Source of the DNA: a virus
Reading direction: 5' to 3' (one strand)
Virus record (IMG/VR): IMGVR_UViG_3300027833_000126
Coordinates: 1-35,085 of that record
DNA: 35,085 bases
The notes beneath the pieces were generated by a model. The model was not told the DNA's origin and ran no database searches. It was given only the letters and a program-made list of their open reading frames with translations. The translations under genes and the position numbers were made by a program. The first letter of the stretch is position 1, and each line of letters starts with the position of its first letter. Shown one piece after another: positions 4,204 to 34,179 of this stretch.

Positions 4204-4911
4204 ATGCCTAGAAAAAGAAATCCTAAGAGTAAAAACTACTTTACCCAAGAAACAGAAGATGCTATTGTATTATACAATGGCACTTCTGATACGGACGTAA
4301 AAAGTAGAATTTATCAAAATGAAATCCATTATCCGTTTTTTAAATTAACGGAAAATATAATCCATACCTTTAAATTTTATTATACGGAGGTAAATGAGAT
4401 TGAACATCTACAACACGAAGTAATCTGTTTCTTATTATCTAAGATTCATTTATTTGATCCTACAAGAGGTGCTAAAGCATATTCTTATTTTGGTACTATA
4501 GCTAAACGTTATTTAATCCTCCAGAATCAAAAGAATTACAAGAAACGTGTCCATAAAGCTCCAATCGATGAGTTATTTAAGGATGATACTCATACCTATA
4601 GTATGGATGAAGTAGGAGTAGCTAATGATCCCTTAAATATGTACATTAACTTATATGTGGACTACTGCTCAGAAAGATTATTTGAATTATTCCCTAAAAA
4701 ACACGATGCTGCTGTTGCAGATGCTATTTTAGAGTTGTTCCGTAAAAGAGAATATATTGACGTTTTTAACAAAAAAGCACTTTATATCTATATTAGAGAA
4801 ATGATAGATGTGAAAACTCCTAAAATCACAAAAATAGCTAACCAATTGTATGTTATATTTAAGGATAACTATATTTTCTATCTTGAAAACGGATATGTAG
4901 AATTCGAATAA
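4204..4911 (+). CDS. Late-transcription sigma factor, T4 gp55-like
   Basis: A 235-aa protein. Residues 69-105 (HEVICFLLSKIHLFDPTRGA then AYSYFGTIAKRYLI) match the sigma region 2.1-2.2 pattern, the core-polymerase-binding helices conserved in T4 gp55. The N-terminus is basic (MPRKRNPKSK). There is no region 4, as expected for gp55, which depends on a coactivator and the sliding clamp. T4 gp55 is 185 aa; this one has an extra C-terminal part (about 160-235) with helices rich in Tyr/Ile/Lys. Its role would be to direct host RNA polymerase to late promoters, and it sits immediately upstream of the baseplate operon and its candidate box at 4915. The family call is by motif and context. Confidence 0.8.
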   Translation: MPRKRNPKSKNYFTQETEDAIVLYNGTSDTDVKSRIYQNEIHYPFFKLTENIIHTFKFYYTEVNEIEHLQHEVICFLLSKIHLFDPTRGAKAYSYFGTIAKRYLILQNQKNYKKRVHKAPIDELFKDDTHTYSMDEVGVANDPLNMYINLYVDYCSERLFELFPKKHDAAVADAILELFRKREYIDVFNKKALYIYIREMIDVKTPKITKIANQLYVIFKDNYIFYLENGYVEFE

Positions 4912-7972: not shown

Positions 7973-8335
7973 ATGAAAGCGACAGAATTTAAAAAACTCA
8001 TTAAAGAATCAGTACGAGAAGTTATCCAAGAGGAATTAAAAGAAATTCTTCTAGAAGCTGTCCGTTCACCTAAAACTGTAGTAACAGGAACAACCCCAGT
8101 TCCATCAACCTCTCATGCTTTACCTGACGATGATAAAGTAAAATTAAGAGAAAATATGATGGGAGTTTTAGATGGAATGAAGCGTGGTGAAGATACCATG
8201 TCCTTTACTTCAGCTAATGCTCAAGGTATAGGAAATTCTTTACAAGTACAACCAGGAATGGATACAACAAACGGCCCACTTCCAGCAGGTAATGTTGGTT
8301 TAGATCAAATCATGGGTTTAATGAAAGGTAAATAA
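7973..8335 (+). CDS. Small virion-associated protein with (L/I)xE-rich N-terminal helix (120 aa)
   Basis: The N-terminal 30 residues form a charged amphipathic helix starting MKATEFKKLIKESV and continuing to EILLEAV. They contain several (L/I)xE-type triplets such as IKE, IQE and LLE, the kind of site cut by T4-type prohead proteases. The middle is Thr/Pro/Ser-rich (VVTGTTPVPSTSHALP) and the C-terminus is Gly/Met-rich (LDQIMGLMKGK), giving a low-complexity, probably extended protein. It lies between the poly-proline protein and gp25 and shares a TAATG junction with gp25. The internal M325 segment of the protein at 32385 starts similarly (MKKSELKEMIKAAM). A small structural or assembly role is likely, but no family was recognised. 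Confidence 0.65.
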   Translation: MKATEFKKLIKESVREVIQEELKEILLEAVRSPKTVVTGTTPVPSTSHALPDDDKVKLRENMMGVLDGMKRGEDTMSFTSANAQGIGNSLQVQPGMDTTNGPLPAGNVGLDQIMGLMKGK

Positions 8336-23917: not shown

Positions 23918-24376
23918 ATGAACAATTGGTTATATAAAGGGGAAGAAATGATTTCTTTGGAGTCATTTCCCCCATCAACATTCGGTTTTATATATAGAGT
24001 AATCCACATTCCAAGTGGTAAAGCCTATATAGGTAAAAAATACGTTAAATTTACTCGTAAAGCTAAACTAACTAAAAAAGATTTAGCACTATATGAGGGT
24101 ACTAAAGGTAGAAAACCATCATACAAACAAGTAGTTAAAGAAAGCGATTGGCAAACATATTGGGGTTCAAACAAAACTCTATCTAACTTATTAGAGAACG
24201 AACCAATAGAGAACTTTAAACGTGAAATTTTAACTTTGGCTACCTCAAAGAAATTATTAACTTACGAGGAAACAAAAGCACAGTTTATCTACGAGGTACT
24301 AGAAAATCCAAACGATTTCTTCAACGATAACATTCTCGGCAAGTTCTACACAAAAGACTTTGAGTCCCAAAAATAG
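23918..24376 (+). CDS. GIY-YIG-like endonuclease (putative)
   Basis: A 152-aa protein. Residues 23-28 (GFIYRV) and 37-41 (YIGKK) match the two strands of the GIY-YIG nuclease core, with the usual spacing and a Lys-rich stretch after (KYVKFTRKAKLTKKDL). Further on, VVKESDWQTYWGSNKTL and NFKREILTLA fit the rest of the fold, including an Arg/Glu-bearing helix. The first tyrosine position carries FIY rather than GIY. It is a short stand-alone protein without the DNA-binding repeats of homing endonucleases, so it might be a repair or host-DNA nuclease or a solitary homing-like gene. It lies between the fibre and primase genes. The function is from family resemblance only. Confidence 0.7.
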   Translation: MNNWLYKGEEMISLESFPPSTFGFIYRVIHIPSGKAYIGKKYVKFTRKAKLTKKDLALYEGTKGRKPSYKQVVKESDWQTYWGSNKTLSNLLENEPIENFKREILTLATSKKLLTYEETKAQFIYEVLENPNDFFNDNILGKFYTKDFESQK

Positions 24377-26150: not shown

Positions 26151-26951
26151 ATGATATCATTAGTAAGACTTTTAAATGAAGTAGAGGGAAAACCTAAGGC
26201 TATTATATTAGCTGGTGCTCCTGGTGCTGGTAAAGGAACTATTTTAAAAGGTTTAGACTTAGGTGGTTTAAAGATAATGAATATCGATAACACGTTTGTT
26301 GATAAACTTAAACAAGCTAACGTATCTCTGGATTTAAAGAATGCTACTCCTGAAGAAAGGAGTGAGCAAGCTAAATCAATGGCTGCAGCTAACAAGGAAT
26401 TTAAAGGTGAAGTACAAGCTACTATTGAAGGTAGAGAATCATTTATATTAGATGGTACAGCAGCTTCTTATAAACAAACAGCTTTACTTAAAGAGCAGTT
26501 AGAGGAAGCAGGGTATAGTGTACTGATGCTTTACGTTTATACTGATTTAGAACGTTCATTAAAACAAAACCAAGATAGATTTGAAAAATCAGGTGGTGAA
26601 GATAGAAGTTTAGCACCTGCTATTGTATTACGTACTTGGAAAGGCGTAACAGATAATCTAAAACCATATGCTGATTTATTTGGTAATAATTTTACAGCAG
26701 TAGCTAATACGTTAGAAGGTAATAAAATAAAAGATATTGAAGGGATTCTTCAAACATATCTAGAACCATTTGCTCCTAAAAACACCAAACCAAAAACACC
26801 AGCCCAACAGGAAAAATCTGATAAACAAAAAGCAGAATTAAATACTGAAATTCAAGCTATGTTAAATGATGAATTTTTAGAGGATATACTTTCTTACACG
26901 GTATCTAAAGATGAAGCTCAAAGTAAATTACAGAATTTTCTACGTTCATGA
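26151..26951 (+). CDS. P-loop kinase, zeta-toxin-like (266 aa)
   Basis: A Walker A motif GAPGAGKGT is at residues 22-30, followed by IMNIDNTFVDKL (D46) and a FILDGTAASYKQT stretch (98-110, D101). A LMLYVYTDLERSLKQNQDR region contains the lid-like arginines. This is the pattern of small kinases of the zeta-toxin/AAA_33/chloramphenicol-phosphotransferase type. The natural substrate cannot be read. The first ~10 residues (MISLVRLLNE) precede the kinase core and end in LNE, like the tags of nearby proteins. The C-terminal 60 residues are charged and helical (KTPAQQEKSDKQKAEL). The stop overlaps the next start (ATGA). It may be a packaged effector or a metabolic kinase. Confidence 0.75.
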   Translation: MISLVRLLNEVEGKPKAIILAGAPGAGKGTILKGLDLGGLKIMNIDNTFVDKLKQANVSLDLKNATPEERSEQAKSMAAANKEFKGEVQATIEGRESFILDGTAASYKQTALLKEQLEEAGYSVLMLYVYTDLERSLKQNQDRFEKSGGEDRSLAPAIVLRTWKGVTDNLKPYADLFGNNFTAVANTLEGNKIKDIEGILQTYLEPFAPKNTKPKTPAQQEKSDKQKAELNTEIQAMLNDEFLEDILSYTVSKDEAQSKLQNFLRS

Positions 26952-29344
26952 ATCAACTAACAAAACATTTAGTAGACGGTATCCTTAATGAGGATAAAAA
27001 TGAAGTAATAGCTTTATATGCTGGTGGTTTCAAACCACCTACATCAGGACACTTTTCAGTTATAGAAGAAGCATTAAAACAATACCCAGAAATAGATAAA
27101 CTAATAGTACTAGTAGGCAGTGGTGTTAGAGATGGTATTGAACAAGCTGAATCAATTATAACTTGGGAAATCTATCAAAACTATCTACCTATGAAGGTAG
27201 AAATACAAGCAGCAACTAAACCCCCAATCGGAGCAGTTTATAGTTATGCTAAAGATAATCCTGAAGATACAATATATTGGATTTTAGGTGCTAGAGATGG
27301 TAAAGATGAAGACTTAGCAGATATAGCTTCACGTACTAAAACTCTTGATACAGCAGTAGATAAGTATAATAACGTTGAAGTTAAAGTAATTACAACTTCT
27401 AATGCTGGTATGAGCGGTACTAATGCTCGTAAAGCATTACTATCAGGAGATAAAGAAGCATTTTTTAAATTCTTACCATCTCAAGTAGAGGAAAAAGAAG
27501 AAATATTTAATATCTTAAGACCAGCCGTCAAAGAAACAGAAGACCCAGATGATGGAAAAGCTGCTCCTTATGGTTCAGGCTATGGTGAAGTAAACGAAAA
27601 CGCTTCGTATTCTAAAGATATAGATATTCAAGGTAAAATCGATCAGTTAACCCAACATATGATCGATAAAGGATATAATATTGAACCACTACCCGGACTT
27701 GAATTTGTAGATGGCGATACTGAAAACGCTCGGGATTTCTTCGGAAAGACGGCGTACTATGATCCAATCAACAAGGTTATTGTCCTATATACTGAAGGGC
27801 GTCATCCCAAGGATATAGCGCGTAGTTATGCGCATGAAATGATTCACCATATCCAAAATCTAGAAGGTAGATTAGAAGGTATTGCAACTACAAATACTCA
27901 GGAAGATGATTATCTAAACGATATTGAAGCCGAAGCAAACCTAAAAGGTACAATGACGTTTAGAAATTGGACTGATAGCTTAAATGAAATACAAACCCCC
28001 GCTAAAGAAGAAGATGTCAATCCTAAAGAATTAAAAATAGGTATTGAAGTTGAAATGGAGCATACCGACTCACAAGCTAAAGCAAAGGTCATTGCGTTAC
28101 AACATTTAGCAGAAGATCCTAAATACTATACTAAATTGAAATCACTAGGGTTAGAAGAAAAGAAAGAAAAAGATCCATTTGGTTTAAATCAATTCGCTCG
28201 CGAGTTAATGACTGAAGGAGCTTATGATGCTTTAACTACTAAACTAACTAAAGCTACAATCAATAAATGGGTTGAGGATTCTAAAAAGAAACCGATGCCT
28301 AAAAAATCATTTGTTGATATTGATGTTGACGATGTAGATGGTAAAGGTAGAGAAATTGAATTCAATTACGTTGGTATGATTGAATTTGATAAAAAAGTAG
28401 ACGGATATGAAGTAGATGGAACCTCCAATTCAGGCGAAGATGAAGGTAAAATGACATTCATAGCTACATTATTCAAAGTAAATCCTAAAGTATTACCACA
28501 AGCGTGGTCTAAAATCTCAGCTGATGTTTCCGATGTTATACGACACGAAATTGAGCACCAAACACAAGCCGGAGACAATACACGTTCTTCTAAACAAATG
28601 GAAGACGATATTGATATTCGTGATTTAATTAATAAAGCAAAAATACTCCCTCAGAAAAACTATTATATGTTAGAGAAGGAGATAGATGCTATGCTCCAAG
28701 GTTTATATTTAAAAGCTAAGAAAACTAAAAAACCATTTAAGGATGTGATTAGTAATTATTTAGATATAGCCCCAGGTCTTGAAAAAAAAGAAGATAAAGA
28801 ACTTGTGCTAAACCTTTGGAGAAGCAGAAGAGGGGCATTATCTTTACCGGTATTTGAAAATAAAAATGAGGTTATGGACTATAAAATTTACCTAGATATG
28901 GATGGGGTGTTGGTTGATTTTGATCAACAATTTAAAGATTTAACAGGTATGGCACCTAGAGATTTTGAAGCTAAACATGGCTCTAAAGGTTTTTGGGAAG
29001 CAATTGAAACAGCAGGTGTTGGTTTCTGGCGAGGTATGAAATGGATGCCTGGTGGTGAAGCACTTTATAATCGTGTTGCTAAATACGATCATGCTTTATT
29101 ATCATCCCCTTCACGTAGTGAAACATCTAAAATAGGAAAACGTTTATGGAGACGAGATAAAACTCCAAGCACTAAACTAATCTTATCCAGATCATATTTA
29201 AAGAAAAATTACGCTTCCCCTCTTAGTATATTAATCGATGATAGAGAAAGTAATATTAAACAGTGGGAAGATGCTGGTGGTATAGGTATTTTATACATAT
29301 CACCTAATCAAGTTAACAAAGCATTAGAAAAATTAGGTTTATAG
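26948..29344 (+). CDS. Five-part fusion: nucleotidyltransferase, two HExxH metalloprotease-like domains, DUF5661-like, HAD phosphatase (798 aa)
   Basis: Residues 1-15 (MNQLTKHLVDGILNE) look like a tag. Residues 20-190 form a cytidylyl/nicotinamide-nucleotide adenylyltransferase-like domain: YAGGFKPPTSGH (24-35, TxGH) and MSGTNAR (155-161). Residues ~220-340 hold a zincin motif HEMIH (296-300), with a downstream NDIEAEA (324-330) that can give the third ligand. Residues ~360-405 resemble DUF5661 (IGIEVEMEHTD, HLAEDPKYYTKLK). Residues ~425-625 hold a second HEIEH (533-537), with EKEIDAM (576-582). The C-terminus from 643 is a HAD fold (LDMDGVLVDF, D650/D652; ILIDDRESN, D764/D765). It overlaps the kinase gene (ATGA). 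All expected catalytic residues named are present. Such a fusion is unusual; the combined role is unknown. Confidence 0.8.
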   Translation: MNQLTKHLVDGILNEDKNEVIALYAGGFKPPTSGHFSVIEEALKQYPEIDKLIVLVGSGVRDGIEQAESIITWEIYQNYLPMKVEIQAATKPPIGAVYSYAKDNPEDTIYWILGARDGKDEDLADIASRTKTLDTAVDKYNNVEVKVITTSNAGMSGTNARKALLSGDKEAFFKFLPSQVEEKEEIFNILRPAVKETEDPDDGKAAPYGSGYGEVNENASYSKDIDIQGKIDQLTQHMIDKGYNIEPLPGLEFVDGDTENARDFFGKTAYYDPINKVIVLYTEGRHPKDIARSYAHEMIHHIQNLEGRLEGIATTNTQEDDYLNDIEAEANLKGTMTFRNWTDSLNEIQTPAKEEDVNPKELKIGIEVEMEHTDSQAKAKVIALQHLAEDPKYYTKLKSLGLEEKKEKDPFGLNQFARELMTEGAYDALTTKLTKATINKWVEDSKKKPMPKKSFVDIDVDDVDGKGREIEFNYVGMIEFDKKVDGYEVDGTSNSGEDEGKMTFIATLFKVNPKVLPQAWSKISADVSDVIRHEIEHQTQAGDNTRSSKQMEDDIDIRDLINKAKILPQKNYYMLEKEIDAMLQGLYLKAKKTKKPFKDVISNYLDIAPGLEKKEDKELVLNLWRSRRGALSLPVFENKNEVMDYKIYLDMDGVLVDFDQQFKDLTGMAPRDFEAKHGSKGFWEAIETAGVGFWRGMKWMPGGEALYNRVAKYDHALLSSPSRSETSKIGKRLWRRDKTPSTKLILSRSYLKKNYASPLSILIDDRESNIKQWEDAGGIGILYISPNQVNKALEKLGL

Positions 29345-29346
29345 TT

Positions 29347-29919
29347 ATGAAAGACAACATTCTAAAAAAAGAATTTGGCAAAAAAGATGTTCAACGTTTA
29401 CGTAACGTTCTAGGAGGTAAATCCAGCGAACGTTCTACCGATGGCATTGGTTATACTAAAGCAAAAGAATTTTATGAGGAAGGTGATGTTTGGACTGAAC
29501 ATGGTCGTGAATGGACTATTAAAGATGGTTTAAGACAAAATATTACAAAAATGGGAAAAGCTAAAGAGTTAGCTATGCCTATGTTTTGCCCTTCTTGTAA
29601 AAAAATCATGAAAGGTAAAAATGACAAAAGTTTTTGGTCTAATTATAGACGTTGCTTTAATTGTCAAGTTGATTTCGAACATGAATTAAAAATGAATGGT
29701 TTGTGGGAAGAATATAAAGAGCAAATCCGCGTTGATGGTATAGATAATTTTATTAATAGTTATAAAGATTGGGCTCAAGAAATGCTCGACACATCAAACC
29801 AAGGATTTGTTTCCGAAGCAGGTGATGTGGAAAATTGGAAAGGTGGGATTAATACAGAATTAGCCCAAAAATCTATTAACGATACTATTGAATATTTAAC
29901 ATCTTTGAAAGAACAATAA
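29347..29919 (+). CDS. Zinc-ribbon protein of unknown function, common in marine phages (190 aa)
   Basis: Residues 81-106 have two Cys pairs (CPSC at 81-84 and CFNC at 103-106), spaced as in a zinc ribbon. The N-terminus (MKDNILKKEFGKKDVQRLRN) is basic and helical. A YEEGDVWTEHGREWTIKDG stretch (43-61) looks like a small beta domain. After the zinc site comes an acidic helical C-terminus (NSYKDWAQEMLDTSNQGF). The sequence closely resembles a protein often seen in marine T4-like phage genomes, from general memory, without a known function. Zinc-ribbon folds suggest nucleic-acid or protein binding. The start context is TATAGTTATG, 2 nt after the fusion enzyme. Confidence 0.75.
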   Translation: MKDNILKKEFGKKDVQRLRNVLGGKSSERSTDGIGYTKAKEFYEEGDVWTEHGREWTIKDGLRQNITKMGKAKELAMPMFCPSCKKIMKGKNDKSFWSNYRRCFNCQVDFEHELKMNGLWEEYKEQIRVDGIDNFINSYKDWAQEMLDTSNQGFVSEAGDVENWKGGINTELAQKSINDTIEYLTSLKEQ

Positions 29920-29935
29920 TTCTTCCATATTTATA
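29904..29935 (+). promoter_or_regulatory. Candidate promoter TTTG-N18-CATATTTATA (near-leaderless class)
   Basis: TTTG at 29904-29907 and CATATTTATA at 29926-29935, 18 bases apart. The start codon at 29939 is 13 nt from the first base of the box. The 17-mer CATATTTATAATCATGA is identical to that at 7960-7976. Confidence 0.5.
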
Positions 29936-29938
29936 ATC

Positions 29939-30178
29939 ATGAGATTTAACCCGGGACAAAATAGGAAAGTAGTAAAAGGTAAAACTTATATTAAAGATTT
30001 ACCACAAATCCAATTAACACCGGTTAAAGAGATTAAAGAAGAAATTAAAGAAAAATCTAATGAGTCAATTCAACACGAGCAAGTGGTTCAAAACCCAATA
30101 CCTAAAGGAAGCCAACCTGTACGAAGAAAAGTCAGATCTAGCAGCAAAAGCAATAGATCAGGCAATAGCGGGAGTTGA
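29939..30178 (+). CDS. Small basic protein overlapping the next gene (79 aa)
   Basis: ATG at 29939 directly after a promoter-like box. The first ~40 residues are MRFNPGQNRKVVKGKTYIKD and LPQIQLTPVKEIKEEIKEK; the remainder, which overlaps the next gene in another frame, is low-complexity and basic (RRKVRSSSKSNRSGNSG). The overlap is 119 nt (30060-30178), unusual in a genome where overlaps are 1-4 nt. Either the first half is the true conserved domain and the overprinted tail has little constraint, or the gene is a broken or frameshifted N-terminus of the following one. The promoter-like box supports expression. No family was recognised. Confidence 0.5.
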   Translation: MRFNPGQNRKVVKGKTYIKDLPQIQLTPVKEIKEEIKEKSNESIQHEQVVQNPIPKGSQPVRRKVRSSSKSNRSGNSGS

Positions 30179-30500
30179 CGAATCTCTTAGTTATTCTGAT
30201 TTTGCTAAAGCTGTAGCTACTATACTTAAAGATGAGTATGGTGCTCATAATTTTAACCCATTTATGGAGGTATTACATGCTGAATTAGGTATAAATGAAG
30301 AAATCTCTGATTACGAGATGGTAGTATATAAAGTAGAAGGTATTACAGCCGATACAGATGAAGGTGGCCCAGACGAGCCATTTGAAATGGAAGTTAAATT
30401 AGAGGCTTCACTCTCGGATGCTGAAGTAAAAAGTGCTATTAGAGATGCTGCTCGTAGAGAACAAGGTAAGTTGTATAAACTTGATTACAAGAAAGCATAA
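30060..30500 (+). CDS. Unknown protein with tag-like N-terminus (146 aa)
   Basis: Starts MSQFNTSKWFKTQYLKEANLYEEKSDLAAK when read in two pieces: MSQFNTSKWFKTQYLKEANL and YEEKSDLAAK. The opening resembles the tags at 32108 and 32385 (short, aromatic, then LxE sites LKE and LYE). Residues ~30-75 are helical (LSYSDFAKAVATILKDEYGA). From ~80 on, YEMVVYKVEGITADTDEGG and MEVKLEASLSDAEVKSAIRD suggest a compact alpha/beta domain. It ends with a 1-base overlap with the next gene. VYKV followed by acidic residues also occurs in the middle unit of the protein at 32385 (MVYKVGNVDG). Possible internal virion protein; function unknown. Confidence 0.6.
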   Translation: MSQFNTSKWFKTQYLKEANLYEEKSDLAAKAIDQAIAGVDESLSYSDFAKAVATILKDEYGAHNFNPFMEVLHAELGINEEISDYEMVVYKVEGITADTDEGGPDEPFEMEVKLEASLSDAEVKSAIRDAARREQGKLYKLDYKKA

Positions 30501-32071
30501 TGGAAGATATTAAACAAATACAAGAATTCTTTTCTAAACCAGTAAAAGAAAATTCAAGACGCTCTCCTGATTTTATTCTAACAGAACCAGCAGAGATAAA
30601 GTTCACAGAATCATATGGCTCCGGTATTAAAGCACCCGGTGTTTTACACCACGCAAATGAGGGGGCATTTTTGGGAGCAGAAGGTGCTTATATTTTCGAT
30701 TTTCCTGGAGGTACTTTTTATGTAGATGAAGATAAAGAGGAAGCTATTCGAATTTATCCTCTTAAAGACCAATCTGAAGAACTTCAATTAGCACTTGATT
30801 ATACTCCATTTGCTCCAAAATACGAGACATGGAAAAGTTGGGTTAAAGAGCCTAAAACATTAGAAGAAGCAAATGTTTCATGGTCTACAATACACTCATC
30901 ACCCCCAGAATCTGATTTAATAGCTTCAGATATTCAAAAAGCAATGAATCAAAATAAAGGAGATGAAGCTATAATTCACCAACTTAAGATTGCTAGAAGA
31001 AAGATGAATGTTGGTGATTTAAAGAAAGCCAAAGAAATCGTTAGTAGATATTTAGCTGTTGGTTTAGAAGAACTAAAAGAAGCTGACCTAAACGACCCAG
31101 TTGCTATGAAAATGAGAGCAGCTAAAGATAAGCTAGCTAAAATGAGAAAAACAAATGCTGGTGATGATGGTAATGATAAATTCTTTAAAAATTCAACTAA
31201 ACTTGCTACATTAAATAAAGCACGTAAACAATTAATGCGTGATATGGAGCAAGAAGCTGAACCAGAAGGTGGCTCAATTGCTGATGAATATGGAAGAAAA
31301 CTAAATAAAATTGATGCTGCAATCGCTAAACTATCAGGTAGAAAAGAGATGGACTATGATACCGCTGTCGGTAAAGTAAACGAATACGATGTATACATGC
31401 CTTCACAAGAAGAGGTAGATAATTTCTTTAATAGCCATGATAGTTTAGGTTCACATTACTTAAATAACAAACCTGTTATGGGTCAAGAAGCTACATTTAA
31501 TTTAATGCCTATTGAACCCTGGGATGAATATGATTACTCTAACTGGAAGGCTCTACAAGCAGATACATTAGAAGAAGTTACTCGTTATAGTGGTTTCACT
31601 AGAAACCCAGAAGATCCAGATTCCGAACCATTTAAACCAACAAAATCAGTATCGGAATTTACAGAAGATTTAAGAGCATTATTTGGTAAATTTAAAGGTG
31701 ATTTAAAAAATCCTGAATTTATAAAAGGAGTAGCTCAAGTAATGGTTAATTGGAAACCACTTTTAAGAAGTCAATTAGACGAAGTTCAAAAAGGACACAA
31801 CGAAAAAGTATCTAAATCATTAAAAGAAGAAGAGGGCTACTCTAAATTCTTAAAAACAGACGACAACCCAGAAGGTAAAACTAAAGGTTTAACTACAAAA
31901 GCCATGAATAAAATCCTTATGAATGTAATTAAGGATCTTAAAGAAGGAGAACCTGGTTTGTGGGACAATATTCGTGCTAAAAGAGCAAGAGGAGAAAAAC
32001 CATCTAGTAAAAACTCAAAAGCTTACAAATCAGCTGTAGCTGCTGGAAAGCGCATCAATAAGGAAAAATAA
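30500..32071 (+). CDS. Multi-segment protein of unknown function with C-terminal GLWDNI motif (523 aa)
   Basis: Starts one base inside the previous stop (TAATG). It has distinct segments. Residues ~1-110 are beta-rich (GAYIFDFPGGTFYVDEDKEE). From ~125 to 195 a helical block (ANVSWSTIHSSPPESDLIAS) is followed by a Lys/Glu coil, then a charged helical region (KMRAAKDKLAKMRKTNAG). A Tyr/Asp-rich block (VDNFFNSHDSLGSHYLNN) and further helices lead to the basic C-terminal end GLWDNIRAKRARGEKP (486-501). The last motif is familiar from marine-phage virion proteins, where it is often near the C-terminus. LEEA, LKEA and VNEY sites separate several segments. No catalytic motif was recognised. An internal or structural role is guessed. 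Confidence 0.65.
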   Translation: MEDIKQIQEFFSKPVKENSRRSPDFILTEPAEIKFTESYGSGIKAPGVLHHANEGAFLGAEGAYIFDFPGGTFYVDEDKEEAIRIYPLKDQSEELQLALDYTPFAPKYETWKSWVKEPKTLEEANVSWSTIHSSPPESDLIASDIQKAMNQNKGDEAIIHQLKIARRKMNVGDLKKAKEIVSRYLAVGLEELKEADLNDPVAMKMRAAKDKLAKMRKTNAGDDGNDKFFKNSTKLATLNKARKQLMRDMEQEAEPEGGSIADEYGRKLNKIDAAIAKLSGRKEMDYDTAVGKVNEYDVYMPSQEEVDNFFNSHDSLGSHYLNNKPVMGQEATFNLMPIEPWDEYDYSNWKALQADTLEEVTRYSGFTRNPEDPDSEPFKPTKSVSEFTEDLRALFGKFKGDLKNPEFIKGVAQVMVNWKPLLRSQLDEVQKGHNEKVSKSLKEEEGYSKFLKTDDNPEGKTKGLTTKAMNKILMNVIKDLKEGEPGLWDNIRAKRARGEKPSSKNSKAYKSAVAAGKRINKEK

Positions 32072-32081
32072 CATATTTATC
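32072..32081 (+). promoter_or_regulatory. Candidate promoter box CATATTTATC
   Basis: CATATTTATC begins the base after the preceding stop codon, and 36 nt lie between its first base and the ATG at 32108. It differs from the consensus at the last base. No TTTG/TTG element is found at 17-20 nt upstream; CTGG at 32043-32046 is too far. A weaker candidate than the others. Confidence 0.4.
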
Positions 32082-32107
32082 ACATATAAACATAATTAAA
32101 TCCTATA

Positions 32108-32158
32108 ATGAATAATTTCGACTTAACAAAATATTTAGCTGAAGGTAAGCTATACGAG
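32108..32158 (+). repeat. Direct repeat, copy 1 (N-terminal tag coding region)
   Basis: These 51 bases encode MNNFDLTKYLAEGKLYE. By hand alignment they match 32385-32435 at 46 of 51 positions. Three of the differences are silent and two change residues (Y9/F9, Y16/H16), so the protein sequence is under constraint or the duplication is recent. Copy 2 begins the next gene, 277 bp downstream. Confidence 0.85.
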
Positions 32159-32365
32159 AATGTATTAGCCCAAAAACTTAGAGACGAAGCAACCCAACCA
32201 GATTCAAAAGTAGGTGCTGCTATATTTAACAAATATGCTAAAAAAGTAGAAAAAGCTGACAAAGAAGATTATGTAAAACTTCTAAAAGCTATGGAAAATG
32301 AATTAATATCCAAACACCCTGATACATTTAGTGGTGAAGATGATATCCCAGGAAGTTTCCTATAA
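32108..32365 (+). CDS. Small tag-bearing protein of unknown function (85 aa)
   Basis: Starts MNNFDLTKYLAEGKLYENVL, followed by a helical, lysine-rich body (KKVEKADKEDYVKLLKAMEN) and an acidic end (DTFSGEDDIPGSFL). The first 17 residues match those of the next protein except for two positions. They contain LAE and LYE, matching the (L/I)xE cut-site pattern of T4 prohead protease, so the mature protein could be the part after LYE. The length after such cutting would be 68 residues, comparable to small internal head proteins. No enzyme motif is seen. It has a candidate promoter at 32072. Confidence 0.65.
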   Translation: MNNFDLTKYLAEGKLYENVLAQKLRDEATQPDSKVGAAIFNKYAKKVEKADKEDYVKLLKAMENELISKHPDTFSGEDDIPGSFL

Positions 32366-32384
32366 AACTAAAAATTAAAATAAA

Positions 32385-32435
32385 ATGAATAATTTCGATT
32401 TAACAAAATTTTTAGCTGAAGGTAAATTACACGAG
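32385..32435 (+). repeat. Direct repeat, copy 2 (N-terminal tag coding region)
   Basis: These 51 bases encode MNNFDLTKFLAEGKLHE, 46/51 identical to copy 1 at 32108-32158. A third, more diverged in-frame copy of the second half (MAAEGKLHE) is encoded at 32895-32921 inside the same gene. Confidence 0.85.
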
Positions 32436-33965
32436 GGAACAATGGCTGAAGCCTTAAATAAGCCCCTAGTCCAATTAGGTCCTGCTCTAGAAAAAAGAAT
32501 GAAATCTTCAAACTTTGAGGTTAAAATCATCCCAAACCAAATCTCAGTCCCAAGCGACGCAAAAGATGCTATTTCACAAAATTCCAAACTAGCAGCAATT
32601 GCTTTCGGTGAATCCGGAGGTCGGGAATTTATGGAAGTAGTAGTTAACAAAGACAGATTAAAAGATTTAACCAAAGTTAGAGACTATTTTAACATACCTT
32701 CAGGAGCATATGGTCCTGATAAGGATATGGGTTGGGTAGTAAAGAATGTCCGTAATGTTAATGCTGGCGATATTACAGCAAGCAAGGCAGAATCCGTAGG
32801 TAATGTAGGTATACTAACTTTCTTTAGAGCTGAAAAAGCTAATGATGATAGTACAGGGGTGTTCGGTACTCAAAGTATTAAAAGTACTAATAAGATGGCT
32901 GCTGAAGGTAAACTACACGAATTTACAGATGCAATCTCCCCAGAAGAAGTTAGGGATATGGCTCAAATGGTAGCTGATGCTTTTACTGCAGAAGATGCTG
33001 AAGGTGATAGATTCTCAACTTACATGGTTTACAAAGTAGGTAATGTAGATGGAATGTCATTCGAACTAGATACAGAAGCAACAGAACAAACACCAGAAGA
33101 CGATGCTAAATATGGTACTGGTGAAGGCTGGGGTGGTATGTTTAGAGTTAAACCAACAGATAACGGGTATGAAATTAGAAACAGCGAAAAAGGTGGCTTA
33201 GTAGCTACTATGGATGGTTCAGGTTTTACAATGTTAGATGCTGAACAATCAAAAGCTGAAATGGGTGGAGATACCGACTACATGGAACGTAGAAGAGAAA
33301 CAGACGATTACATAGAAGAAGGTGAAGAAGAAGTTAAAGAAATTAAATCAAATAAAATGAAAAAATCAGAACTTAAAGAAATGATCAAAGCCGCAATGAT
33401 GGCTGACACAGCAGTTTACGAGGCAGAAGACGTTGAAGTAACAGATGATGAAGATATTGATGTTGATATCGAAAAAGATGTTAAAGTTGATGACGAAGAG
33501 TCAGAAGTAGACATCGATATAAATGCTGAACTTCCAGGCGAAGATGGTGATGTAACTGAAGTTTTAGCTTTACTTATGAAATCACAACAAGCTGCTGAGG
33601 ACATAGGAGATGAAAAACTTATGGATCAAATAGGTAATACAATTACTTACTTTACTCGTTCTCACGTTGCTAATGTAAACGAAGCTGATTTAGATATGGA
33701 CTTAGATAGCGCTGCTGGTAGAGCTAAAGAAGCTACAATCGGATTGGACGAAACAGAAGAACTAGACGAAAAGAAACAAGGATATAACGACGAGTTAGAT
33801 GATTCTGAAGGTGCTAAGCATGGTAAGAAGAAACAAGACATGGCTCAACGTCGTGCTGATTCTGAAAACATGGAAAAAGCAGATGGTAAGAGAAAATATT
33901 CAGGAGATAAGTCAAAAGATCTAAATGAATCAGTAACTTTCCCAATGTGGAATAAAATTAAATAA
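32385..33965 (+). CDS. Three-unit tag-bearing protein, possible polyprotein (526 aa)
   Basis: Unit 1 (1-170) starts with MNNFDLTKFLAEGKLHE, then an unknown alpha/beta domain (FEVKIIPNQISVPS, EFMEVVVNKDRL, VGILTFFRAEKAN). Unit 2 (171-324) starts with M171-A-A-E-G-K-L-H-E, a repeat of the tag core, and has TYMVYKVGNVDGMSFEL. Unit 3 (325-526) starts MKKSELKEMIKAAMM after an A-rich stretch (AAATAAAATG at 33350-33359) that looks like a gene leader. It holds an acidic Asp/Glu/Val tract (345-393), a conserved-looking helix LALLMKSQQAAEDIGDEKLM and a charged basic tail. This looks like the fusion of three once separate small proteins, or a polyprotein cut after LHE sites. No enzyme motif is seen. Confidence 0.7.
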   Translation: MNNFDLTKFLAEGKLHEGTMAEALNKPLVQLGPALEKRMKSSNFEVKIIPNQISVPSDAKDAISQNSKLAAIAFGESGGREFMEVVVNKDRLKDLTKVRDYFNIPSGAYGPDKDMGWVVKNVRNVNAGDITASKAESVGNVGILTFFRAEKANDDSTGVFGTQSIKSTNKMAAEGKLHEFTDAISPEEVRDMAQMVADAFTAEDAEGDRFSTYMVYKVGNVDGMSFELDTEATEQTPEDDAKYGTGEGWGGMFRVKPTDNGYEIRNSEKGGLVATMDGSGFTMLDAEQSKAEMGGDTDYMERRRETDDYIEEGEEEVKEIKSNKMKKSELKEMIKAAMMADTAVYEAEDVEVTDDEDIDVDIEKDVKVDDEESEVDIDINAELPGEDGDVTEVLALLMKSQQAAEDIGDEKLMDQIGNTITYFTRSHVANVNEADLDMDLDSAAGRAKEATIGLDETEELDEKKQGYNDELDDSEGAKHGKKKQDMAQRRADSENMEKADGKRKYSGDKSKDLNESVTFPMWNKIK

Positions 33966-34008
33966 AAATAAAGGTTAACAAATTAATAAAATTTATAAAA
34001 CAAAAATT

Positions 34009-34179
34009 ATGAACACTCAAGAATTAAAAGAACAACTAGACGCATTGTACGAATCATTTACTATGGAGCACGCAGGTACTTCAAAAGCAGCACACGGACG
34101 TGCTCGTAAAGCATTAGGTGGAATCAAAAGTTTGATTTCTGATTATCGTAAAGCATCTGTTGCTCAAGATAAAAAGTAA
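34009..34179 (+). CDS. Histone H1-like (Hc1-type) small protein, tentative (56 aa)
   Basis: Starts MNTQELKEQLDALYESFTME and continues HAGTSKAAHGRARKALGGIK. It has 13 Lys/Arg residues, concentrated in the second half. The pattern of an N-terminal helix, then xKAAxGRxRKALxxIK and a further helix (LISDYRKASV) is like the histone-H1-like/Hc1 proteins common in Bacteroidetes, which are short, basic and bind DNA. The family link is from residue pattern only. If right, it could compact or coat phage DNA or be a packaged head protein; LYE at 13-15 fits the tag-cutting pattern. The leader is A-rich with no Shine-Dalgarno. It ends 3 nt before the next gene. Confidence 0.55.
   Translation: MNTQELKEQLDALYESFTMEHAGTSKAAHGRARKALGGIKSLISDYRKASVAQDKK

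Follow-up and report, generated by a model that had tools for sequence, protein, structure and literature searches.

The window analysed here is the whole 35,085-base virus record IMGVR_UViG_3300027833_000126, a fragment that ends upstream of the head genes. Its gene order runs from T4-type baseplate and tail genes to a primase (24397), an exonuclease (25320) and then a block of genes (26151-34179), most of whose products start with a short N-terminal tag ending in a hydrophobic residue, any residue and glutamate (hydrophobic-x-E). This block probably encodes the head cargo of a T4-type phage with a modular and apparently enlarged tag system. The closest isolate to the window is Flavobacterium phage immuto (NC_055915), which grows on Flavobacterium sp. 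LMO8 and in which the order is primase, exonuclease, NMNAT protein, block, terminase, portal, S77 protease and gp23. The window comes from an uncultured T4-type phage whose host, as deduced from immuto, is probably a marine member of the Bacteroidota. Relatives (cited by G or L numbers) were fetched with a single marker, the 798-residue fusion protein of the block, which gave 80 IMG/VR loci. The block, defined as the genes between the exonuclease and the major capsid protein, was compared in the window and six relatives. Start codons were taken from a simple open reading frame (ORF) caller, and at least one start is misplaced (G002 scaffold). The block in the window contains the following genes.

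26151..26951, + strand: zeta-fold P-loop kinase of 266 residues (Pfam Zeta_toxin, 3.5e-17), class III tag MISLVRLLNE (codons 1-10, 26151-26180)
26948..29344, + strand: 798-residue fusion (from Pfam, PHROGs, motifs, predicted disorder and Foldseek), tag MNQLTKHLVDGILNE (26948-26992)
29347..29919, + strand: conserved block protein of 190 residues, untagged
30060..30500, + strand: 146-residue protein of no assigned family, class I-W tag MSQFNTSKWFKTQYLKEANLYE (30060-30125), a class of 30 distinct N-termini
30500..32071, + strand: 523-residue protein of no assigned family, class VI tag MEDIKQIQEFFSKPVKE (30500-30550), a class of 13 distinct N-termini
32108..32365, + strand: 85-residue protein of no assigned family, class I tag MNNFDLTKYLAEGKLYE (32108-32158), its tag DNA compared with that of 32385
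32385..33965, + strand: acidic protein of 526 residues in three modules, class I tag (32385-32435)
34009..34179, + strand: Hc1 histone-H1-like protein of 56 residues (Pfam Hc1), not a tag carrier

A preliminary description of this block, made from the sequence, is largely right. It had quoted six N-termini as capsid-targeting-like tags, all of which lie where it placed them, and five (26151, 26948, 30060, 32108 and 32385) are real, but it overlooked the tag of 30500. The sixth, the start MNTQELKEQLDALYE of 34009, was rejected as a tag, since it lies within a Pfam Hc1 match that spans residues 4-56 and scores 28.8 bits against a curated cut-off of 23.5; it belongs to the Hc1 family, and orthologs retain these start residues as part of the protein. 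Across the window and its relatives, the tags appear to form classes with the patterns MISLxxLLxE, NFDLKKYLAEGxLxxE, FxxxKWxxxYLxE, IQEFFSKPxxE and, less surely, KKSELKxxIK..LxE.

In T4, the internal proteins IPI-IPIII and Alt carry the capsid-targeting sequence MKTYQEFIAE and are processed by the gp21 (S77) protease; targeting sequences of this type have 10-19 residues. The capsid-targeting reading of the block is strongly, though indirectly, backed by the T4-identical spacing of the kinase tag, by tag swapping, and by an S77 protease and a capsid site in relatives. Alignment of the tags across related phages, which had been suggested in the preliminary description, reveals recurrent classes, and the 42 distinct kinase tags share L4 (42/42), E10 (42/42) and L or I at positions 7 and 8, with positions 5, 6, 9 and 11-14 variable. 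In IPIII of T4, positions 4 and 7 chiefly govern targeting and positions 8 and 10 govern processing, and an aspartate at position 10 prevents cutting while leaving targeting intact (PMC9026906). Class I spacing is longer than the T4 type by two residues. E10 is invariant across 50 kinase orthologs, including those with swapped tags, and in the kinase model residues 4-11 are the sole stretch with a predicted local distance difference test (pLDDT) score below 50, the remainder being at about 93. E10 is therefore invariant yet outside the fold, as predicted for a processing site.

The search for a gp21-like protease and its substrates succeeded in the relatives, the window itself ending before the head genes. 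An S77 prohead protease was found in immuto (gp070) and in five of the 13 records of relatives that were searched, the rest being mostly shorter fragments; in relatives its gene is close to those of the capsid. In six relatives the capsid protein has VxE/A or VxE/E (slash, known or predicted cleavage position) in the column of T4 gp23 LTE/A, E65, and the tags, which end in L/I/V-x-E, present the same type of site. The proteases of the relatives also bear similar sites near their own N-terminus (e.g., GLLTE/S). The strict class III pattern finds only ipII, ipIII, 24, 61.1 and 2 in T4. T4 gene 61.1 (L116 18966-19130, − strand) starts with MKTFKEFIKE, a T4-spaced tag on a protein unlisted among the internal proteins, and gp2 of T4 gene 2 (L117 26061-26885, − strand) starts with MAIFQIINE.

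Tag sites were counted with a fixed rule, [ILVMFYW][ILVM]xE with its end at residues 6-30, which among T4 protease substrates recovers ipII, ipIII, alt, 68, 21, 22 and 24 and misses ipI and 23. Six of the eight genes in the window block match this rule, versus 0/18 internal control windows. In the window and six relatives together, 46% of block genes match (82 of 177), compared with 17% of non-block genes (108 of 629; p=1.5e-14) and 14% of windows placed inside block proteins (63 of 452; p=8e-17). Under a narrower rule, matches were found in 19/223 proteins of immuto (control 2.8%), 15/201 of G001 (2.8%), 16/242 of T4 (2.7%) and 7/37 of the window (1%), but the rates of the window, G002, G005 and G006 are not comparable with those of whole genomes because these records are partial and rich in block genes. 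In G006 the excess under this rule falls short of significance (p=0.085). The same rule gives no excess in HTVC008M, Melnitz or RM378, so that the presence of tags in all T4-type phages was rejected, and Syn9 and Cr30 are marginal. The C-terminal counterpart of the site gave no significant enrichment (19/164 versus 39/408 internal windows, p=0.28), and at C-termini only the KLAGII and MWNKIK endings described below were noted.

The suggestion that the system is larger than in T4 is moderately supported. Counting by strict tag classes gives roughly 9-15 tagged genes in the near-complete relatives immuto, G001 and G003 versus five in T4, whereas a less strict rule yields comparable margins above control, of about 8-13 genes versus about nine in T4. 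Tagged proteins of immuto include gp069, gp076, gp077, gp082, gp087, gp092 and gp093. Judging from these counts, a head-cargo system larger than that of T4 is likely, though not settled.

Tags also vary independently of the protein bodies to which they are attached. Of 1,703 proteins, 50 have the class I pattern NFDLKKYLAEG at the N-terminus and eight have it internally, and the bodies of 93 distinct class I proteins represent 67 families without mutual match (blastp, E 1e-3). IMG/VR was searched for class I with a degenerate DNA pattern, which has exact matches in at least 120 stretches, whereas the control, made by permuting the codons of that pattern, has 0. A chance origin of the tags was rejected by the outside-block, internal-window and permuted-pattern controls. 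In six adjacent G003 genes, the tag DNA is 80-93% identical and the DNA directly after the tag 24-44%. Similarly, genes 32108 and 32385 share the tag form MNNFDLTK[YF]LAEGKL[YH]E, with 90% DNA identity across the tag and 35% beyond. Codon differences within tags are mostly synonymous (57 synonymous versus 18 nonsynonymous), and therefore the peptide, not the RNA, is conserved; an mRNA element was rejected on this bias.

About ten body families bear differing tag classes in different phages, a count from which a few clusters of low-complexity acidic proteins were left out. For example, equivalent bodies follow a class I tag in one case (MDTFDLKKYLVENTLHE followed by NEIASLADELADEI) and a class VI tag in another (MKDLKIIQEFFSKPIYE followed by NEIDSLGDALADEI). 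Kinase orthologs carry MISLxxLLxE in most phages and a class I tag in G006, L007 and L008, where they start with MDNFNLKKYLTEGSLLKE, MNDFDFKKYLAEGRLLRE and MKDFDYKKYISEGILLKE, respectively, and the tag ends in LLxE shortly upstream of PKA. Because such swaps on the same body are otherwise hard to explain, the tags may be regarded as equivalent addresses.

The kinase at 26151 has a zeta-toxin/polynucleotide-kinase fold. The 798-residue fusion comprises, in order, a NadD/NMNAT-type nucleotidyltransferase, HExxH domain 1, DUF5661, HExxH domain 2 and a 5'(3')-deoxyribonucleotidase. The two HExxH domains have no Pfam family name, and Foldseek of the fusion gave no metallopeptidase for them among the 50 matches listed. 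Kinase and fusion retain their active-site motifs (P-loop and invariant residues; nucleotidyltransferase and DxDG motifs). Some relatives have the tag of the fusion, others lack it, and in others an additional domain takes its place. Comparison of 130 tagged proteins with Pfam and PHROGs assigned few functions, and neither the window proteins nor these 130 proteins (first 25 families listed) gave a Pfam or PHROGs match to an IPI-IPIII or Alt family, their bodies not having been compared directly. One tagged protein, immuto gp093 (L002 13367-13807), starts with MISIYNILKE and has no Pfam match; its GEYLGEGDYGAVFLVG resembles the glycine loop of protein kinases.

We further noticed that hydrophobic-x-E sites and tag-like sequences also occur inside two of the proteins.

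27590..27598, + strand: fusion, possible cut site VNE/N, residues 215-217, in the linker between NMNAT and HExxH domain 1 (194-222 disordered)
27980..27988, + strand: fusion, possible but weak cut site LNE/I, residues 345-347, where HExxH domain 1 ends (347-423 disordered)
28208..28216, + strand: fusion, possible but weak cut site MTE/G, residues 421-423, before HExxH domain 2, within a predicted helix (413-445)
28850..28858, + strand: fusion, possible cut site VFE/N, residues 635-637, ahead of the 5'-nucleotidase domain, which is a separate protein in relatives
32901-32921, + strand: 32385 protein, internal tag remnant AEGKLHE, residues 173-179
33357-33398, + strand: 32385 protein, internal class II tag MKKSELKEMIKAAM (MKKSELKEMIK at 325)

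At the NMNAT-HExxH junction, [LIVP]xE is present in 26 of 27 distinct contexts, and mean identity is 14% before the site and 33% after it. In immuto, G005 and L057 the 5'-nucleotidase stands alone and has its own tag; elsewhere it is part of a fusion, joined at VFE or RLRE. AEGKLHE and MKKSELKEMIK of the 32385 protein are likewise the N-termini of separate proteins in relatives. These internal sites may make the cargo a cuttable polyprotein, or may be a mere trace of gene fusion. The 32385 protein ends with LNESVTFPMWNKIK, and its C-terminus LNES..FPMWNKIK (window 33921-33962) is common to otherwise dissimilar proteins of L005, L010 and L048.

A conserved RxQKLAGIIK ends the scaffold-like protein of immuto (125626-126867) and the scaffolds of G001, G002, G003, G005 and G006. 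The KLAGII-type motif is also N-terminal on class IV tagged proteins and C-terminal on several class II ones, in which it is preceded by LDE/S or IVE/S; examples among tagged proteins are at immuto 25061 and 111675, L030 16597, L036 16269 and L076 15211. Such sharing is possibly scaffold mimicry.

These sequence comparisons point to a pathway in which an N-terminal tag of any class would recruit its protein to the scaffold core inside the prohead and the S77 prohead protease would cleave after hydrophobic-x-E. The freed proteins would remain in the head and enter the host along with the DNA. It is very likely that the tags target proteins to the head, and nearly as likely that the prohead protease cleaves them; injection of the cargo into the host is favored with less assurance. 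With low confidence, the cargo, such as the kinase and the NMNAT/HExxH/5'-nucleotidase fusion, might tune nucleotide or NAD metabolism, or act against the defences of the host, as infection begins. A broader and rather speculative possibility is a general head-cargo code, in which several tag classes, unrelated to one another yet interchangeable and one of them copying the KLAGII of the scaffold, address dozens of families and some cargo is a polyprotein cut into separate enzymes in the capsid before injection.

Alternatively, the tags might direct targeting and be cut as above, but on proteins that help to build the prohead or its core, as T4 gp67, gp68 and gp22 do, and that are never delivered to the host. 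Some tagged proteins are indeed acidic and scaffold-like (e.g., 32385), and class II proteins of relatives end in the KLAGII of the scaffold, but kinase and fusion retain active-site motifs that would be needless for a structural role, and the bodies vary far too much among phages. We consider this explanation unlikely. It is still less probable, and indeed quite doubtful, that the tags dock proteins to an assembly other than the head, such as a tail, replication or transcription complex. In immuto and G001, some of the tags occur on genes remote from the head genes, and a class II tag is carried by a protein of the tail cluster and its orthologs:

7973..8335, + strand: 120-residue protein in the tail cluster, class II tag MKATEFKKLIKESVREVIQEELKEILLE, head role doubtful; orthologs in immuto, G001 and G003

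Against docking elsewhere, the tag enrichment adjoins the head genes, the spacing is identical to that of T4, and the capsid protein and the N-terminal region of the protease share hydrophobic-x-E. Finally, that the conserved starts are a translation or mRNA element or ordinary amphipathic fold starts is true for the Hc1 start of 34009 but can hardly hold for the others, being largely refuted by the tag swaps and opposed by the synonymous bias, the identical peptides on unrelated bodies and the absence of matches to the codon-permuted pattern.

Several points weigh against the assignment of the block to head cargo. Class II is the least certain class because the tail cluster also has such a tag, on 7973. 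Some block genes carry no tag, and the NMNAT protein is without one in G001, G006, L008, L018, L019 and others. Protease and capsid genes fall outside the window fragment. The relatives are not independent, because they were fetched with one marker, and the rules and classes were defined post hoc from the same data, with T4, the permuted DNA pattern and the outgroups as outside checks. No published virion proteomics for immuto or relatives was found in the open-access literature.

The T4 packaged proteins are few, and those of known role counter host defences. Injected T4 IPI and IPIII provide host-specific counter-defence (PMC9391042), and early delivery of an NMNAT-type enzyme against NAD-depleting defences is plausible because phages are known to rebuild NAD+ against them (PMC12774641). 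The NAD-metabolism enzymes of NARP1 likewise counter such defences, but they are other enzymes, and the available part of that source does not describe virion packaging for NARP1 (PMC12774641). The block resembles the T4 IPI-IPIII/Alt system in its short N-terminal tags with hydrophobic residues at 4, 7 and 8, E10 and a hydrophobic-x-E end, in its varied cargo and, as seen in relatives, in the accompanying T4-type head genes and S77 protease. T4 has one tag class, whereas here there are several, swapped across families and with L, I or V at P3, and many unrelated cargo families, including multi-enzyme fusions with internal sites. P1 DarB is similar in that its N-terminal 30 residues suffice for a large enzyme to be packed into the head and later delivered (PMC9024508); it is a single protein of another head system, with no common tag sequence noted, the sequences not having been aligned. 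In phiKZ and SPN3US, many head proteins are also cut after x-E by an S77-related protease and ejected (PMC10052503, PMC9026906), but theirs are S/A-x-E or A-x-E sites on mostly long propeptides, in contrast to the tags of 10-22 residues ending in L/I/V-x-E described here. Although the principle is known from T4, such a number of tag types and cargo families seems not to be. With a tag readable from sequence, one could list from DNA alone the proteins that many uncultured phages of Bacteroidota are candidates to inject; most of the tagged proteins are without a known family. The first-delivered proteins of such phages would become testable in a cultured relative, and the tags could serve as a ready-made means of loading proteins into phage heads.

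Other features were observed in the window. A 65-residue ORF (466-663, MKNFKNLLEETIAENQ) upstream of the tRNA cluster has a T4-spaced tag, and a 79-residue ORF (29939-30178) overlaps the tagged gene 30060 in another frame, so that either or both may be translated. The gene at 4204-4911 has a weak match, under the cut-off, to sigma-70 region 2 and possibly encodes a late sigma factor. Beside the primase, a SegE-type GIY-YIG homing endonuclease gene (23918-24376) is retained in relatives.

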